Program-made: the position numbers and the translations under genes
Part shown: positions 18,129-64,000 of the stretch, piece by piece
Position numbering within the stretch: position 1 is the stretch's first letter
Layout: the number at the start of each line of letters is the position of its first letter
Assembly: GCF_000469325.1 (NCBI RefSeq)
Contig: NZ_KI271583.1
Location: 18,215-82,214 of the forward strand
Length of the DNA: 64,000 nucleotides
Origin: Schleiferilactobacillus shenzhenensis LY-73
GTDB taxonomy: Bacteria; Bacillota; Bacilli; Lactobacillales; Lactobacillaceae
Reading direction: 5' to 3'
Notes under the pieces: generated by a model
Database searches by the model: none
What the model saw: only the letters and a program-made list of their open reading frames with translations
What the model was told of the DNA's origin: nothing

Positions 18129-18494
18129 ATGGCTCGTATCGCAGGTGTAGATTTACCCCGTGATAAGCACATCGTCATTGCCCTGACCTATATCTTTGGG
18201 ATCGGCAATACCACTGCAAAGAAGATTCTGGACCAAGCCGGTGTCCCTGAAGACACCCACGTTCGCGATTTGACTCCCGATCAAGAAGAGAAGATTCGTG
18301 CCGTCGTGGAGACTATCCGGGTCGAAGGTGACCTTCGCCGGGTCGTTTCGATGAACATCAAGCGGCTGCAAGAAATCGGTTCTTACCGTGGCATGCGTCA
18401 CCGTCGGGGTCTGCCCGTCCGTGGCCAGAACACAAAGAACAACGCCCGTACGCGTAAAGGTCCTAAGACCTCGATCGCTGGACGTAAAAAGTAA
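18129..18494 (+). CDS. rpsM: Ribosomal protein S13
   Basis: 121 residues. S13 forms bridges to the 50S subunit and contacts P-site tRNA through its basic tail ([16 protein letters not shown]). [20 protein letters not shown] and [16 protein letters not shown] are diagnostic. Confidence 0.98.
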
Positions 18495-57366: not shown

Positions 57367-58446
57367 TCAATGCGCATATGCGCGCATCGTCAACGACAAG
57401 ACGACAATATTACTGAGTGCCAGTCCAGCCAACACCATGAGATATGTCGTTCCCGCCAGCAGCAGGATGCCTTGGCTTTGCCAGAGCCATTGACCAACGA
57501 TGGTGACGGCCAAGGCGGCTGTGCCGATGATAATGCTGCCGGCTTGGCGGATAAAGCGTTCAGCCCAGGTGAAGAGAGTGGTGGCGAGGGTCAGGGTGAG
57601 GGTACCGATGAGGAGTGCTTTGGCGACGGCGGTGAGAAGGGGCATGAAGACCGTGTCGTGGACGACGAGGGGATAGGACCAGCTGCCGCGGGTTTCGGGT
57701 AGGAGCGGGTGGCCGAAGAGCGTCAGGATGAGGGCGGCAGTCAACACAGCGATGGTGAGCAGGCCGAGCCAAGTGAGCAGGTCGACAGCGAGGCGGGCCA
57801 GCGGCCAGGTGCCGGCGTGCTGGAGATTGCGCAGGAGCAGGGCATTACTGCCGCGCCAGTGATCCTGCAGCCGGGTCAGGTGCAGGGCGAGCGCCAGAAC
57901 CAGCACGACGGCCGGGGCGCAGAACCAGGAGGCGAGGTTATAGAAAAAATTAGGTGCGCGCACGGAGGCGGGCAGCTCGAAACCAAGCCCAGCTTGCTGG
58001 ATACGGCGGTACCAGGCAATCTGCTGGGCGTAACGTTCCGCTGAAAAACGGACCTCCTGCCCGGTGGGGTCGAAGTCGCGGACATAGGCCCGGGACAACG
58101 TGACGACCTGTTGACCATTGGTGAGAAAAGTGGCGTTATCGCCGTCAGTGAAGGCCAGTTTTTGCTGGGTGGCGATGTCGGCTAAAGGGGATAACCGAGC
58201 CAACCGTTTGTTGATGGCTGCCTTCTTCGCCTTATCTTTGGTGTCTCGATACGCTTGCCCGAGTTGGCTTACGGCATTGTCCAAATTGTCGCCCACCGTG
58301 TTCAGCCGGGCAATGAGGGTGTCTCGTTGGTTAGCTTGGTCGGCTTGGGTCTTCACGAAAATCAGACCGGCCAGTACAGGGGCCAACAGCAATAGTCCCC
58401 AGATCAGGCGGCTGCGCCAAAGACTATGCCATTCCCATTTGAACAT
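57367..58446 (-). CDS. ABC transporter permease, ABC-2 type
   Basis: 359 residues from ATG 58446 with GGGGGTGAG. An N-terminal helix (LIWGLLLLAPVLAGLIFV) is followed by a ~140-residue extracytoplasmic region, then five or six helices, the layout of ABC-2 permeases. It is the last gene of the cassette that begins with the small secreted protein at 60708. Likely half of the membrane part of an exporter. Confidence 0.8.
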   Translation of the reverse strand: MFKWEWHSLWRSRLIWGLLLLAPVLAGLIFVKTQADQANQRDTLIARLNTVGDNLDNAVSQLGQAYRDTKDKAKKAAINKRLARLSPLADIATQQKLAFTDGDNATFLTNGQQVVTLSRAYVRDFDPTGQEVRFSAERYAQQIAWYRRIQQAGLGFELPASVRAPNFFYNLASWFCAPAVVLVLALALHLTRLQDHWRGSNALLLRNLQHAGTWPLARLAVDLLTWLGLLTIAVLTAALILTLFGHPLLPETRGSWSYPLVVHDTVFMPLLTAVAKALLIGTLTLTLATTLFTWAERFIRQAGSIIIGTAALAVTIVGQWLWQSQGILLLAGTTYLMVLAGLALSNIVVLSLTMRAYAH

Positions 58447-58459
58447 GTCGCTCACCCCC

Positions 58460-59137
58460 TTATTCGAACAATCGTGTATACAGGCCCTCGGCATTCTCTG
58501 TTTCTGTCAGCTGCGTCCGTTGGAGCTGGTGGTCATGAATGTAGATGACCTCTTTGGTGATGCGGTCAACTTCATCCAGATTATGGGAAGACACAATGAT
58601 GGTTTTCCCGGCAGCCCCGGCTTGCAAGATGGCCTGGCGGACCGTCTTCAGACTGCTTGGGTCCAATCCGTTCAACGGCTCGTCCAGCAGAACCAGCGGC
58701 GCGTCCACTAGGAAGGTCATCGCCACCAGCAGCCGCTGGCGCATACCCAGGGAATATTGCCGCACACGCTTGTCCAAGAAATCCGTCACTTGAAGGGCTG
58801 CCGCAACCGGCAAGATCTGTTCCTCCGGCAAGTGGTGCAGCTGAGCGATCAACTGCAGATGTTCCCGCGCGGTCAAGTAAGGATAGAGCACAGAGATGTC
58901 CTGCATGTAGGCCATTTGGGCATAGACCACCGCGGGAGTCAGGGGCGCGTCCATGACGGTGATACTGCCTTGATAATGCTGCAGACTGCCGCTGAGGATA
59001 TTGAATAGGGTCGTCTTGCCGCTGCCGTTGGGGGCAACGAAGGCGTAGATGCCCGGTTGGGTGATGCTGAGCTGGGCGTGGTTAAAAATCGGTTGGCGGC
59101 GGAACTGAAACGTCAGATCCTTAATTTCTAAAATCAT
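58460..59137 (-). CDS. ABC transporter ATP-binding protein
   Basis: 225 residues. Walker A APNGSGKTTLFN, signature-type QYSLGMRQRLLVAM and Walker B LVLLDEPLNGLD, with the H-loop VSSHNLDE. MILEIKDL at ATG 59137 is chosen because GGAGG is seven bases away. Overlaps the upstream permease gene by 17 bases; 13 bases separate it from the next. Confidence 0.92.
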   Translation of the reverse strand: MILEIKDLTFQFRRQPIFNHAQLSITQPGIYAFVAPNGSGKTTLFNILSGSLQHYQGSITVMDAPLTPAVVYAQMAYMQDISVLYPYLTAREHLQLIAQLHHLPEEQILPVAAALQVTDFLDKRVRQYSLGMRQRLLVAMTFLVDAPLVLLDEPLNGLDPSSLKTVRQAILQAGAAGKTIIVSSHNLDEVDRITKEVIYIHDHQLQRTQLTETENAEGLYTRLFE

Positions 59138-60317
59138 AACCATACCTCCGATTCCGCTGCAGCAAGCCGAGCGCACCGGCGAGCAGAACAATACTCCAAA
59201 GAGTCAGTACGAGCACGGCCTGGGCGAACGAACCGCTCCCCATTCTGTAAAGGGCGAAGCCATTGCTGACGGCACCGACATTCAGATAGGGGAAAGGCAG
59301 CCAAGGGGTGCGTTGAATGAAGAATCCCAGGCCGGCGGTGAGAGCGGTCAGCACGGCCGCAAGCAATGCGTTGCGGGTCAGAACGCTCCAAAGCATATCA
59401 ACGGCGAAGCCCAACATGATGACCAGGAATAAGAGCAGCGCACCGCGGCCGAGAAAAGCAGCCAGGGTGATGAAAGTCTCACTGCCGTCGATGTGCCAGA
59501 GCAGGATCGGGTATTGCAGACTGCCTGCGGGAGAAAAGAGCAGGGAACCCGCCAGAAACAGACCGACCGGCACGAGCACCGCCGCCGCTGTGGTCAGCAC
59601 CCCTAAGGCGAAGCGGCTGAGCCACAGACGGTGCGGGTCAACGCCGTTTACTGTGAGCAGTGATAAGTGGCGGTGGGCCTGGTTCAGCTCGCTGGCAAAG
59701 GCCGTACCATAAAAGAGAATGATCACGAGGATCAGTGGCAGCAGCCAATTATTTCGCAACATGTGGCCGATGAAGTACCAGCCATTGGTGTAGAAACGAG
59801 CTCCAGCGGTTCTGGCAATGGAAGCGTATTGATCTGGGTCTCCAGAATAACGTTCGGGTGTCAACTCATCTCGCAATTGCCGGGCTGGGAAAAACGGGAT
59901 CAAGCGTTTCTCAGTGACTATGGTTAATTCTTGAACTGAATTGGTCAACTCAGTTTGTGAGAACACAGGGCCTGAGACTGTAGTACCAGTGGCAAGTGTT
60001 CCAAAGGAGCGATTGCTTGTACCCGGGCCACTATTTTTAGAGTTCTTTAAGGATGATAAATACGCATTTGCGTAGGCCGATGCGCCATCTTTTAATTGAG
60101 CTTGCTCATATTGGTATCGCTCAAGCCAAGGCCCTTTCATCTTTTCTTTGTTTTCATTGGCGATGGCTTTTGTTAACGTTGTTTGATACGTATGGAGGTA
60201 TTCCTGTCCATTACTCATTTCACGAGCGAAAAGAAATGCAAATATTAGTGTGATGGCTACCGAGCACAGTAAGATAACTCTTTTATGGGTCAACTGAAAC
60301 ACAAGAATTTTGTTCAT
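59121..60317 (-). CDS. ABC transporter permease, ABC-2 type
   Basis: 398 residues from ATG 60317 with AAAGGA. Helix 1 (VILLCSVAITLIFAFLF) is followed by a ~160-residue outer region rich in Ser, Asn and Gln, then five or six helices. It pairs with the permease at 57367 around one ATPase. The outer loop is a candidate contact for the small secreted protein. Confidence 0.8.
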   Translation of the reverse strand: MNKILVFQLTHKRVILLCSVAITLIFAFLFAREMSNGQEYLHTYQTTLTKAIANENKEKMKGPWLERYQYEQAQLKDGASAYANAYLSSLKNSKNSGPGTSNRSFGTLATGTTVSGPVFSQTELTNSVQELTIVTEKRLIPFFPARQLRDELTPERYSGDPDQYASIARTAGARFYTNGWYFIGHMLRNNWLLPLILVIILFYGTAFASELNQAHRHLSLLTVNGVDPHRLWLSRFALGVLTTAAAVLVPVGLFLAGSLLFSPAGSLQYPILLWHIDGSETFITLAAFLGRGALLLFLVIMLGFAVDMLWSVLTRNALLAAVLTALTAGLGFFIQRTPWLPFPYLNVGAVSNGFALYRMGSGSFAQAVLVLTLWSIVLLAGALGLLQRNRRYGYDFRN

Positions 60318-60336
60318 GTTGTTGTGTCCTTTCAAC

Positions 60337-60382
60337 ATAAAAACTGCCCACACCGCGCATTTTCACTCGGTACAGACAGTTC
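60337..60382 (-). terminator. Hairpin between secreted protein and permease
   Basis: On the minus strand AACTGTC (60381-60375) pairs with GGCAGTT and a T5 run (60348-60337). It would let most transcripts end after the small gene, giving it higher expression than the transporter. Confidence 0.6.
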
Positions 60383-60402
60383 ATCCGCAAAGTAAGGTCA
60401 AA

Positions 60403-60708
60403 TCAAGGCGCTAACGTGAACGTACCATAATAAGACCCCACATACCCGTTAATTGTGCCTTGGTATCCAGTACGTTTCGCACCTTGCGCATTGTAGTAGA
60501 CACCATTAATGGGTACAGTCTGCCACAATGTTTGCGGTGAAATGTCTTGGAACCAAAAAACGTAAGTGCCAACGAGTTTTGCAGCTGGATCGGACGCTGC
60601 TTGAACAGTTGGCTGATTTGGTGAGAAGGATTGAGCCATGGCTGTGAAGCCAAGGGCCAATCCAAGAGCCATTAGAAAGGAAACTACCAAGCCAAGACCT
60701 TTCTTCAT
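60403..60708 (-). CDS. Small secreted protein of ABC cassette 1
   Basis: 101 residues from ATG 60708 with AGGAG. Signal peptide MKKGLGLVVSFLMALGLALG ends near VQAA-SDPAAK, leaving about 60 residues rich in Gly, Tyr and aromatic residues (GTYVFWFQDISPQTL, GYVGSYYGTFTLAP) with no Cys. Good own promoter (TTGCCA, 17 bp, TATTAT at 60771-60743). Followed by a terminator and three ABC genes. Size and context suggest a bacteriocin-like or signalling peptide, but no known family is matched. Confidence 0.75.
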   Translation of the reverse strand: MKKGLGLVVSFLMALGLALGFTAMAQSFSPNQPTVQAASDPAAKLVGTYVFWFQDISPQTLWQTVPINGVYYNAQGAKRTGYQGTINGYVGSYYGTFTLAP

Positions 60709-60742
60709 GATGGTCATCTCCTAAATTTTTTTGAACATCTTA

Positions 60743-60771
60743 ATAATATCAGAAGAAGGGCTCATTGGCAA
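60743..60771 (-). promoter_or_regulatory. Promoter of cassette 1
   Basis: On the minus strand TTGCCA (60771-60766), 17-bp spacer, TATTAT (60748-60743). The rest of the gap 60772-60885 shows no gene. Confidence 0.75.
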
Positions 60772-60885
60772 CCCTTACGAATGAGAAACGATGACATAAT
60801 TGTTGGACTTCAACTTGGCCAACAATCCAGTCAAGGACTGGTTTTACAGAAGCAACTGCCCATATTAGGGCCAATAGTTGCGTAC

Positions 60886-60932
60886 GAAAAACACACCTCC
60901 ACGTCACAAACATAAAAACGAGAAGGTGTGTC
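60886..60932 (-). terminator. Terminator of the flavodoxin-gtrA pair
   Basis: On the minus strand ACACACCT pairs with AGGTGTGT and a T5 run follows. Confidence 0.75.
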
Positions 60933-60972
60933 GTTCTTTTTGGCGCGCCAGGTTTATCCGCAATCGGAACTA

Positions 60973-61440
60973 TTATGACTGTTTCTTGTTTGCTGCTACC
61001 CGGGCCCGAATCCGATCCACGGTCCGGTGTTTCTGGCGAATGAACGTCCACCGTGACGTCGCGTAGTTGAACAGCCCCACCAGTACCTGGTCAATTACCT
61101 TGGCCCACATACTGGGAATGCCCAAGACTGAGATGCCGATGATCATGATGACGTTGTCCGCCACCAGCGACAGCAGACGGAAGCCGAAGAACGAGACAAG
61201 TTCGGTGCCGACGACCAGCCAGTCGTCGTAATGACTGTGGAACACCAGCGATTTAGTGAACAGGAAGGAAACGGCGTTGCTGATGACCCAAGCCACGTTG
61301 TTGCCGATGACGTAAGGAATGTGCCACACGTGGGTGAACACGAAATAGACCAGAATGTTCACCAAAGAAGCCAGAAAACCATACAGGGTGTAGCGCAAAA
61401 AATGGCGGTACTTATGCACCAGCGCGTGCCAGTTAGGCAT
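60973..61440 (-). CDS. GtrA-family membrane protein
   Basis: 155 residues with four helices. LRYTLYGFLASLVNILVYFV and NNVAWVISNAVSFLFTKSLV are characteristic, as is the end NYATSRWTFI. GtrA-like proteins help flip polyprenyl-linked sugars for wall or teichoic-acid glycosylation. ATG 61440 with AGGTG. 9 bases after the flavodoxin gene. Confidence 0.88.
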   Translation of the reverse strand: MPNWHALVHKYRHFLRYTLYGFLASLVNILVYFVFTHVWHIPYVIGNNVAWVISNAVSFLFTKSLVFHSHYDDWLVVGTELVSFFGFRLLSLVADNVIMIIGISVLGIPSMWAKVIDQVLVGLFNYATSRWTFIRQKHRTVDRIRARVAANKKQS

Positions 61441-61449
61441 AGTGTTCAC

Positions 61450-61902
61450 CTACTTTTGGTCATTATAGCTGGCCAGCAGCTGTTTAGCGAAAGCCTGCAG
61501 GTTGGTAATGTCGTCTTCTTCTGGCGCCAGATCCACCTTGACGGAGGGGGCGCCTTGGGTGGCACCGGTTTTCTTAAAGGCTTCTGCAAAATCGTCCACG
61601 GACTTGGCGAAGTCATCGTAGAACGTGTCGCCGGAGCCGGCACAGCCGAAGACTTTGCCGCTGAGGTCTTCCTCCTGCAGGTCTTCGAAGAAGTCGACGG
61701 CCTCATCGGGCAGCTCGCCGTCGCCGTAAGTATAGGTGACCAGGACGGCAATGTCGTAGTCTTCGTACTCCGCAGCGTCCGTCTGGGAGATCTCGGACAC
61801 GTCGACGTCGACGCCCAGGTTCTCGAATTCCTCTTCCAAAATATCCGCAATTTCTTCGTCGTTACCGGTCATGGATGCATACACAATTTTGGCACTGGCC
61901 AT
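61450..61902 (-). CDS. Flavodoxin, short chain
   Basis: 150 residues. FMN phosphate loop YASMTGNDEEIADIL (near residue 7), TYTYGDGELPDEAVDFFEDL and GCAGSGDTFYDDF are the flavin-binding loops. An acidic cytosolic electron carrier, pI clearly low. ATG 61902 with GGAGG. Cotranscribed with gtrA by position, though the two functions are unrelated. Confidence 0.93.
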   Translation of the reverse strand: MASAKIVYASMTGNDEEIADILEEEFENLGVDVDVSEISQTDAAEYEDYDIAVLVTYTYGDGELPDEAVDFFEDLQEEDLSGKVFGCAGSGDTFYDDFAKSVDDFAEAFKKTGATQGAPSVKVDLAPEEDDITNLQAFAKQLLASYNDQK

Positions 61903-62171
61903 AAGTTCGATTCCTCCGATTGCCTTGCGCAAGACAGGCATAATAACCAAAGTATAGCACAGCGGGTGAAGCTAATCAGAGGAGGGTGGCCAATTATGGG
62001 GTGAGATTTTTCCTGTGAGAGAAAATACACCCAGGCCATTTTTAATCATCATAACTACGGCAAGTGGTATTAACGGTTGAGAGTAAGTAGCGCTCCAAAT
62101 TGAGGAGCGCAATTCACAGGGCTTTTGATCTCCTTAAGAAAAAATTAATAATTAAGCACCTACAAACGCGT
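61903..62171. other. Intergenic with a GCGCTCC hairpin
   Basis: GCGCTCC-AAATTGA-GGAGCGC (62085-62106) is a perfect 7-bp hairpin. No gene is seen; the rest is AT-rich. Confidence 0.45.
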
Positions 62172-62209
62172 ATAAAGCGCTTGCATTCCCAAAAAAACGG
62201 GTGTACCAT
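62172..62209 (+). promoter_or_regulatory. Promoter with cre-like site, cassette 2
   Basis: TTGCAT (62181-62186), 17-bp spacer, TACCAT (62204-62209). ATAAAGCGCTTGCA (62172-62185) has the AAGCGCTT core and 11 of 14 cre positions, over the -35. Confidence 0.55.
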
Positions 62210-62328
62210 TCATGTTTAAGTGGGATATTTAGTTGGTGGGAGACCAGTATACCTGCTTCATCAATGGTCGGACACAACTGGAGAGTCATTGCTGAGTGTT
62301 GGGTCAAGAAAGTATGAGGCTAACGGTT

Positions 62329-62748
62329 ATGAAAACGGCTCGAGCAAACAAGTTCCGCTCAATGCTGGTTTCAGTGGCAGCGCTCTTGGCAGTGGGGACA
62401 GCTTCTGTACTGGCGGGCGCAAATTGGTCACAAGCAGATGTCACGGGGACACCAGGAGGAGGCTCATACCGGGTTGACTATGGTCATGCTGACTATAAGA
62501 TCACCTCGGCTGCAAAAGCTTCGTTCAACGGTGATTACATGACAGCTCATCTGGGCGGACAGGTTGCACTATTTGACGGTAACGGTAATCGGCAGTCTGA
62601 TTGGGTAGGTTTGTGGATTAACCAGACTTGGCGCGCATCATCTTGGGCATCCGTCTACAAGTACTACTATGGCGGTTACAAGACGAATACGTACGAACCA
62701 AATAACGGTCAGGTGGCACGCTTCCATTTTTCATCTGACATGTTGTAA
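62329..62748 (+). CDS. Small secreted protein of ABC cassette 2
   Basis: 139 residues from ATG 62329 with GAGG nine bases upstream. A basic start (MKTARANKFR) and helix (SMLVSVAALLAVGTASVLAG) end near WSQA-DVTG, a good signal-peptidase site. The mature ~104 residues are Gly/Tyr/Ser-rich without Cys (GGGSYRVDYGHADYKI, YKYYYGGYKTNTYEP). Not recognisably homologous to the cassette 1 protein beyond composition. Followed by a terminator hairpin and two membrane genes. Confidence 0.7.
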   Translation: MKTARANKFRSMLVSVAALLAVGTASVLAGANWSQADVTGTPGGGSYRVDYGHADYKITSAAKASFNGDYMTAHLGGQVALFDGNGNRQSDWVGLWINQTWRASSWASVYKYYYGGYKTNTYEPNNGQVARFHFSSDML

Positions 62749-62800
62749 CAGTTCAGCTACATTGTAGCGATTAATGCTGGCGCTGTGTCCGGCACGAGGG

Positions 62801-62834
62801 GGGACGATCACCAACTGGTCGTCTCCCCTTTTCT
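62801..62834 (+). terminator. Hairpin between secreted protein and permease
   Basis: AGGGG-G-GACGA pairs with TCGTC-T-CCCCT and TTTTC follows. Same position as the hairpin of cassette 1. Confidence 0.65.
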
Positions 62835-62876
62835 TCTAAAGTCTGACTATGAGCCATGGAGAGAAGGGAAAACATC

Positions 62877-63668
62877 ATGCTTCATTTTTGGCGAATCAAG
62901 GGATTGTGGATACGATCCGGTATCCTGATCGTTCTCATTGGCTGGCTGGCTTATTTATTCCCAGATTTCACAACGGATATGCCCCAACCTCAGAGACTGG
63001 AGCTGTTTGCCTCGTTTTTCAACCCTAGTCAAAGCCTATTCGCAACGTTGCTGCTCTTTATCAGCAGCTCCGTGCTCATCACAGATTACTGGGTTACTGG
63101 CTTAGCCGTGCACTGGACCGATTTTGTTGTTGGCCGCCGGTCTCGGGCGTGGCTCCTGCGCCATTTGTTTTTCACGACGTTTATTTTCTCTTTTGGTCTG
63201 ATGCTTGTACTGCAACTTGTTGTTTACGGTGTCATGACGTACGTCCGTGGTCCAATTACGCTGACCGGCGATTTTGAATCTCAGTACTTGATGTTTGCCA
63301 ATTTGCGAGCATCACTGTTGGCGGGTGTTTTGACCCACTGTATCGGTTATGCCGTGTTTTCTGACTTCGTGCTGATGATCGGCTTGTGGATCAAGAAACC
63401 CTTTATCTTCAGGATCAGCGGTCCCCTCATTGCACTCGTGATGTTCATCGGTCTGGCGATGTTGAACACGATTCCCGTGCTCAAAAACTTCTTGGCGTAT
63501 TTGTATTTACCGAACCTGATTGCCCCCGGCCAGGTGGGCGATTTTGGGACGTTCATGCTGCCCTTACCCTCGTGGCTCGTTTTCGTTATTGCAGTGGGAC
63601 TCTACAGCCTCGTCACGGTATTGGGGACCGTCGTTCGATTCAAGCGCGGGGGTGAAGTCGATGGCTGA
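62877..63668 (+). CDS. Six-TM permease-like protein of cassette 2
   Basis: 263 residues from ATG 62877 with GAAGGG; an in-frame ATG at 62856 has no site. Six helices resembling ABC-2 permeases: IRSGILIVLIGWLAYLF, SQSLFATLLLFISSSVLITD, LLFFTTF-like LFFTTFIFSFGLMLVLQLVV and others. No ATPase lies within the window; it may follow outside. Overlaps the next gene by 8 bases. Confidence 0.65.
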   Translation: MLHFWRIKGLWIRSGILIVLIGWLAYLFPDFTTDMPQPQRLELFASFFNPSQSLFATLLLFISSSVLITDYWVTGLAVHWTDFVVGRRSRAWLLRHLFFTTFIFSFGLMLVLQLVVYGVMTYVRGPITLTGDFESQYLMFANLRASLLAGVLTHCIGYAVFSDFVLMIGLWIKKPFIFRISGPLIALVMFIGLAMLNTIPVLKNFLAYLYLPNLIAPGQVGDFGTFMLPLPSWLVFVIAVGLYSLVTVLGTVVRFKRGGEVDG

Positions 63669-64000
63669 TACGCCGATGCGGCCCATATTTCGGCAGGCCT
63701 ATAATGTCCGGGCTCTGGCCATTCTGGGCGGAGCACTCATATTCGGTCCATTGATCTCATGGTCCCCCCAAATCCATTATCCGATGGTCGTCACCTTGAT
63801 TCTCAATAATGCTGTCTCGTTAACTAGCAATATTCTTTTTGTCCTGCTCATGACTTACCAGCTAGGACGTCTCCAAGGAATCGGTGTCTTCCTCTCGGTG
63901 CGCATGGGCGTGAGCAATTTCAAGGCGGCTGTATTTTCTGTTTTGTTAACCGACTGGGCATTTTATACGGTGATGCTGTATACAATTGAATCTGTCGTGT
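63661..64000 (+). CDS. Membrane protein of cassette 2, partial
   Basis: Reads open from ATG 63661 to the window end, 113 codons, no stop. MADTPMRPIFRQAYNVRALA is followed by hydrophobic segments (LAILGGALIFGPLISW, LTSNILFVLLMTYQLG, AAVFSVLLTDWAFYTVMLY), a second permease-like protein. The 8-base overlap with the previous gene shows they are coupled. Confidence 0.65.
   Translation, partial: MADTPMRPIFRQAYNVRALAILGGALIFGPLISWSPQIHYPMVVTLILNNAVSLTSNILFVLLMTYQLGRLQGIGVFLSVRMGVSNFKAAVFSVLLTDWAFYTVMLYTIESVV

Follow-up and report, generated by a model that had tools for sequence, protein, structure and literature searches.

Self-protection against lantibiotics is provided by LanFEG transporters, such as NisFEG and those of the gallidermin type (TIGR03740), and a related resistance pump, NsrFE1E2G, has three membrane subunits. 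Replacement of the Q-loop Gln by Glu (the "E-loop") is a mark of LanF, from work on NukF; a search of open-access papers did not turn up the term "E-loop" for LanF. To our knowledge, few families of unmodified, folded, Sec-secreted bacteriocins are known in lactobacilli. Lactococcin 972 is a small, beta-rich protein without Cys that is secreted by a Sec-type route and left unmodified; ABC/membrane genes follow its gene. In the lactococcin 972-like scb locus of pneumococci, a ComR-type regulator and presumed immunity/transport genes accompany the bacteriocin gene; in 27.5% of the surveyed pneumococcal genomes, scbBC is retained although streptococcin B is missing (PMC11796350).

Two cassettes that resemble these systems in part are located on opposite strands of the window, i.e., the whole 64,000-nucleotide stretch analyzed here, which corresponds to positions 18215 to 82214 of contig C2 in a 3.27-Mb genome of Schleiferilactobacillus shenzhenensis (Table 1). 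When the ORFs, strands, and sizes of both cassettes were re-derived, all matched the earlier description. The secreted proteins, termed SP1 (101 aa) in cassette 1 and SP2 (139 aa) in cassette 2, were confirmed to be Cys-free and Gly/Tyr-rich, each with a single N-terminal hydrophobic segment. SP1 has the stated length from the ATG at 60708 (RBS AGGAGAT) and 104 aa from an upstream ATG at 60717, and its cleavage likely occurs after ...TVQAA. The mature part of the window's SP2 is approximately 108 aa, begins with N-W, and contains a conserved ASFNGD core and a C-terminal HFSSD. The two proteins, described earlier as not being obvious homologs, show no profile relationship (hhalign probability, 0.7%). 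Cassette 1 consists of a permease-ATPase-permease triad, in which the permeases have large outer regions. Cassette 2 leaves the window within permB, and the ATPase that was sought to the right of the window is present there, followed by a third membrane gene. The proposal that both cassettes follow one plan holds only loosely: the secreted proteins are unrelated, the permease sizes and topologies and the ATPases differ, and cassette 1 is kept in few loci, in which SP1 occupies another place and orientation.

Table 1. Features of the two cassettes, numbered from the first position of the window
Feature	Position	Strand	Description
SP1	60403..60708	-	Secreted protein, Cys-free; ORF with RBS
SP1-permease a hairpin	60341..60382	-	15-bp outer stem, then U run
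Cassette 1 permease a	59121..60320	-	399 aa, 6 TM, ~159-aa loop between TM1 and TM2
Cassette 1 ABC ATPase	58460..59137	-	225 aa; PF00005, 4e-22; Q-loop Gln retained
Cassette 1 permease b	57367..58449	-	360 aa, 6 TM, ~138-aa loop between TM1 and TM2
SP2	62329..62748	+	Secreted protein, 139 aa
SP2-permA hairpin	62796..62830	+	Terminator-like; 15-bp stem, T-rich tail
Cassette 2 permA	62856..63668	+	263-270 aa, 6 TM; better RBS at start 62878
Cassette 2 permB	63661..64000 (window end)	+	186 aa, 5 TM; ends at window-equivalent 64221
Cassette 2 ATPase	window-equivalent 64240-64869, outside window	+	From genome sequence
Cassette 2 permC	ends at window-equivalent 65318, outside window	+	Third membrane gene

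Relation to lactococcin 972 and LanFEG loci

The original prediction named lactococcin 972 as the nearest known type and described the W-x-YG pattern of that family as missing. The pattern is indeed absent: SP1 and SP2 matched neither W-x-YG nor PF09683 (at E ≤ 10), 15 SP2 homologs did not match PF09683 at E ≤ 1, and comparison with lactococcin 972 homologs using hhalign yielded probabilities of 0.5% for SP2 and 0.1% for SP1. A genuine PF09683 protein was detected in the same genome and thus serves as a useful internal control. The protein scores just over the PF09683 cutoff, and its locus (C18:38184-40692; L125:7185-9693) encodes a 698-aa membrane partner, with no ATPase gene directly downstream.

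SP2, like lactococcin 972, is predicted to be a small, unmodified, beta-rich protein of the Sec-secreted type, and SP2 loci share with those of lactococcin 972 and streptococcin B (scbABC) the Rgg/ComR-type regulators and the occurrence of loci in which the downstream genes remain but the gene of the secreted protein is missing. In addition to the missing pattern and profile similarity, SP2 differs in mature length, which is approximately 106 aa in its family versus approximately 66 aa in lactococcin 972. The membrane components also differ, because cassette 2 possesses three small permeases whereas lactococcin 972 loci possess one membrane protein of 660 to 720 aa, as present in L126, L127, and L128; the permeases of the cassettes comprise 169 to 399 aa.

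The ATPases linked to lactococcin 972 (L126 and L127) score 274 to 280 bits against TIGR03608, for which the curated cutoff is 254.85 bits; those of both cassettes score 75 to 109 bits, with the cassette 2 ATPases at 97 to 109 bits. The best-scoring family of the cassette 2 ATPases is TIGR03740 (lantibiotic protection), at 119 to 142 bits, and the same NCBIfam model scores best for the cassette 1 ATPase, at 152 bits, in both cases below the cutoff of 309.75 bits. The Q-loop Gln is replaced by Glu (ALIENPxF) in 11/11 aligned cassette 2 ATPases and is kept by the cassette 1 and lactococcin 972 ATPases. Judged by its sequence, the cassette 2 ATPase is LanF-like. Cassette 2 further resembles LanFEG in its small, multisubunit permeases and in its proposed role, which would be to clear a bacteriocin from the membrane. 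Unlike in LanFEG, the ATPases of the cassettes remain far below the TIGR03740 cutoff and the permeases fit no family; SP2, moreover, is predicted to be a folded secreted protein, whereas the partner of LanFEG is a lanthionine peptide. No lanthionine modification genes (LanBC/M) were found among the cassette neighbors, and both SP1 and SP2 lack Cys.

The SP2 family and the gene order of cassette 2

Profile searches identified relatives of SP2 in 15/401 genomes of the family, representing 9 of its 40 genera, and none beyond the window's own genome among 251 genomes drawn from the class. Approximately 12 members are intact, located in several genera of the Lactobacillaceae and on one Melissococcus plasmid. 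The carriers include Lactobacillus hominis, L. jensenii DSM 20557, Periweissella fabalis, Bombilactobacillus apium, Lapidilactobacillus bayanensis, and L. achengensis. The homolog on plasmid pMP1 of Melissococcus plutonius is 64% identical to the Lactobacillus hominis protein; in the record of this honeybee pathogen (strain DAT585, 164877-177194; L129), it is annotated just as a hypothetical protein. The mature region of the family has nearly fixed ends and includes an N-terminal x-W-[TS], a central K-x6-ASFNGD, and the C-terminal motifs EPN and HFS[AS]D. Across genera, identity to the window copy is approximately 26 to 35% for SP2 and approximately 10 to 22% for the permeases. The dN/dS ratio of SP2 was 0.04 in the single pair tested, which differs from many fast-evolving toxin-immunity pairs.

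SP2 and its homologs matched no Pfam or NCBIfam family above chance, permA matched no Pfam family above chance, a PDB sequence search returned nothing for either protein, and SP2 had no match in phages. Searches of the open-access literature found no description of the SP2 locus. By these comparisons, SP2 founds a family absent from every library searched, in agreement with the suggestion that cassette 2 might represent a new family rather than lactococcin 972. One record with an SP2 cassette is titled Faecalicatena absiana YH-C36a (JAEDAG010000001.1; L109); its cassette and flanks are collinear with those of an uncultured Lactobacillus metagenome-assembled genome (L110). The record may be mislabeled, with Lactobacillus-like sequence placed under a Lachnospiraceae name, and in view of this synteny, spread of the family to Clostridia is not claimed.

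The order SP-permA-permB-ATPase-permC recurs in other genera, amid differing flanks, in nearly all loci with an intact SP2. Conservation of the gene order in relatives, on which the original prediction depended, was therefore found for cassette 2, with minor variants: permA and permB are swapped in L092, permC is absent from L109 and L110, and permC is broken in the Melissococcus plasmid locus. In L028, the contig stops before permC. The permA family as a whole was found in 18/301 genomes. In two loci, permA is duplicated near the SP2 gene (L034:5871-7990 and L110:4931-7285), and in the first of these, the broken SP2 is fused in frame to the first permA copy, yielding an ORF of 402 aa. The SP2 loci L089, L090, and L091 are each adjoined by a regulator in which an Rgg C-terminal domain was recognized; L034 has a protein of the same size as these Rgg-like regulators, of which only the HTH part was recognized. 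The window's own SP2 locus has no adjoining Rgg gene.

Terminator-like hairpins had been noted in the intergenic spaces of both cassettes, and both exceed shuffled sequence. The SP2-permA hairpin has a z score of -4.4 (0/200 shuffles as good), and the hairpin in the gap between SP1 and the permease gene has a fold z score of -2.9 (4/200 shuffles as good). Most orthologous SP2 loci possess a hairpin between SP and permA, the position of which is kept while its sequence is unrelated. The presence of unrelated hairpin sequences at one conserved place suggests a selected attenuator.

Loss of SP2, predicted fold, and probable function of cassette 2

We consider it probable, if by no means certain, that cassette 2 serves as a module for antagonism of the bacteriocin type, composed of a putative Sec-secreted bacteriocin, SP2, and candidate ABC immunity genes. 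This reading draws on features computed here, namely, the gene order, the signal sequence, the new family, the hairpins, and the absence or breakage of SP2 where the ABC genes are intact, together with a beta fold modeled for an SP2 ortholog.

SP2 is truncated or frameshifted, and the four ABC genes are open, in five loci (L030, L031, L032, L034, and L095). The breaks occur in several genomes and, in all five loci, on the SP side; some of them may be sequencing errors of draft genomes. The genome of Bombilactobacillus apium contains two of these loci (L030 and L031), i.e., two copies of cassette 2 with SP2 broken and the ABC genes intact in both. The ABC set occurs without SP2 in at least seven loci (L152, L153, L155, L156, L157, L158, and L159), among which L157 has a shorter ATPase frame than the others. 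This count omits L154, where the contig ends approximately 350 bases upstream (labeled "none" in the ATPase tree), and L161, the unclear ATPase frame of which also placed it outside the tree. The comparison of L152 with L033, which belong to one genus, is the clearest: the upstream flank is near-identical and the ABC proteins are 98 to 99% identical, with SP2 missing from L152. In genus g5, the ABC genes without SP2 have dN/dS ratios of 0.06 to 0.25, indicating purifying selection and therefore maintenance of the genes. The ATPase tree repeatedly pairs sister loci of unlike SP2 state, one such pair being the window's locus and that of its congener G021, and the presence of SP2 showed no clustering beyond that of shuffled labels.

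Structure prediction had been proposed for both mature proteins and succeeded for the mature Lactobacillus hominis ortholog of SP2. Using 15 family sequences, AlphaFold2 modeled the ortholog with seven strands, a pLDDT of 90, and a pTM of 0.80. The window's SP2 is 34% identical to this ortholog and was predicted solely at full length, with a pLDDT of 42; this prediction was set aside, and the fold of the window copy is taken from the ortholog. SP2 is probably a small all-beta domain with a jelly-roll-like sandwich, as modeled. The top PDB neighbor of the model in Foldseek is PirA (E = 0.013; TM, 0.53; identity, 6%), and further distant neighbors include Ena spore-pilus subunits, GOLD domains, lectins, and carbohydrate-binding modules. 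Because no match to the PDB or to viral models was obtained at E ≤ 0.001, similarity of fold is not taken as homology. The lactococcin 972 structure was not among the top 50 neighbors.

The persistence of ABC genes after SP2 bears on the suggestion that cassette 2 is an export system, whereby the ABC genes would export or release SP2 and SP2 would be a surface or signaling protein (an adhesin, a lectin, or a cell wall factor) and no weapon. The conserved codirectional gene order and the good conservation of SP2 are consistent with such a system, and a surface adhesin would be compatible with the weak, sugar-binding structural neighbors (CBM86, CBM36, and TNF-like lectins, besides collagen-binding domains). 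However, SP2 has a signal sequence of its own, at least seven genomes have intact ABC genes but no SP2, and five loci have them beside a broken SP2, which together disfavor a dedicated SP2 exporter; ABC genes that outlast SP2 favor self-protection over export, and the best-scoring ATPase family is one of lantibiotic protection. Retention of immunity genes after loss of the bacteriocin gene has a precedent in scbBC. Export of SP2 by the ABC genes is accordingly regarded as unlikely.

The ABC genes might also constitute a resistance pump of general use against envelope stress or antimicrobial peptides, with SP2 as a LanI-like accessory for drug binding or damage sensing. The purifying selection on lone ABC genes, the Rgg-like regulators near some loci, and the similarity of the ATPase to TIGR03740 fit such a pump, but the features of SP2 argue against an accessory: being Cys-free, it has no lipobox and, with no visible cell wall anchor either, is predicted to be released, and its position upstream of the hairpin implies that it should be the most expressed gene of the locus. 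We regard this explanation as quite unlikely. An action of SP2 on insect hosts rather than bacteria, suggested by the PirA neighbor and by two bee-associated carriers (the Melissococcus plasmid and Bombilactobacillus apium), is highly improbable given the 6% identity, an E value above 0.001, the lack of a visible PirB-like partner, the preponderance of other lactobacilli among the named carriers, and the fact that a dedicated protective ABC transporter is sensible only if SP2 harms bacteria.

For the antagonism module that we favor, we infer killing, a target, an immunity function, terminator read-through, and regulation as follows. SP2 would be exported by the Sec pathway via its own signal peptide, which would be cut just before the conserved x-W, and the mature protein, a compact domain folded entirely from beta strands, would act at the surface of competing Gram-positive bacteria. 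PermA, PermB, and PermC, together with the LanF-like ATPase, would make up an ABC transporter; by clearing SP2, or the bound target of SP2, from the membrane, this transporter would shield the producer. The hairpin after SP2 would act as a partial terminator, such that SP2 mRNA exceeds ABC mRNA, and loci with an Rgg-like regulator would probably be turned on by peptide quorum sensing. The orphan ABC modules would be immunity genes retained against producing neighbors, or they could reflect an ABC transporter with its own job, to which SP2 is optional. The conservation of SP2 above that of the permeases, and its low dN/dS, count against a bacteriocin. More tentatively, SP2 may be the first of a new bacteriocin class of the Lactobacillaceae, Sec-secreted and folded as a beta sandwich, that differs from lactococcin 972 in both target and fold and is paired with a new, three-permease type of ABC immunity able to spread by itself as orphan resistance. 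A bacteriocin function of SP2 would account for a group of loci of the type "hypothetical protein plus ABC transporter," and the family could give narrow-spectrum antimicrobials. Natural genomes with and without SP2, and with and without the ABC genes, make the function of SP2 directly testable; in genus g20, for example, SP2 is present in G056 (Periweissella fabalis) and absent from G087.

Cassette 1 and the relatives of SP1

The original bacteriocin/immunity interpretation is supported for cassette 2, where the order is conserved and SP2 is lost with the ABC genes kept, and much less so for cassette 1. SP1 and permease a matched no Pfam/NCBIfam family, and permease b no family, above chance, and SP1 had no match in plasmids. 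The hits of SP1 to Bacillus_PapR (E = 0.064) and oxaloacetate decarboxylase gamma (E = 0.049) concerned the signal-peptide end and fell below the cutoff, and the one match in a PDB sequence search was judged to be due to chance. The permeases of cassette 1 resemble BceAB in their large extracellular regions. Each of the two cassette 1 permeases, however, has 6 TM and carries its loop between TM1 and TM2, whereas BceAB permeases have 10 TM and an extracellular domain between TM7 and TM8, and no two-component system, a BceAB trait, adjoins cassette 1.

A paralog of SP1 with 50% identity is located on contig C17 of the same genome; a single related permease (47% identical) comes next, with no ATPase. 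Two weak relatives were found in genus g29 (L056 and L064), where the gene is convergent with a permease-ATPase-permease operon that adjoins an Rgg regulator; their scores are low but exceed those of shuffled sequence, with 0, 196, 23, and 11 of 20,000 shuffles reaching the score in four cross-tests. A candidate homolog in G058 (L065, 90-434) was dropped because its leave-one-out score was reached by 167/20,000 shuffles. Paralogs of permease a occur in 12/201 genomes of the family, and permease-ATPase-permease triads recur on contigs C10, C20, and C21 of the same genome and in relatives, several of them adjoining Rgg-like genes. Conservation of the cassette 1 order, which had been proposed as a check, is therefore limited to few loci: most triads lack SP1, and its place and orientation differ.

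These observations can be read in two ways. The triad may be a general, often Rgg-linked ABC family to which SP1 is a chance neighbor, and we hold this to be a serious possibility, although short of probable: most relatives of the triad lack SP1, the C17 paralog adjoins one permease only, and the relation of SP1 to the g29 proteins is weak, but members of the SP1 family and of one permease family are neighbors at three types of locus (C2, C17, and g29). That cassette 1 works in general like cassette 2, with an unrelated secreted protein, is compatible with its layout and is possible, though less likely than not.

The triad is multiplied within the genus and in relatives (L059, L062, L065, L066, and L071), with no small secreted protein adjoining. 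The contig that carries the SP1 paralog also harbors a decayed second copy of the cassette 2 ABC module (C17:30754-31332; L160).
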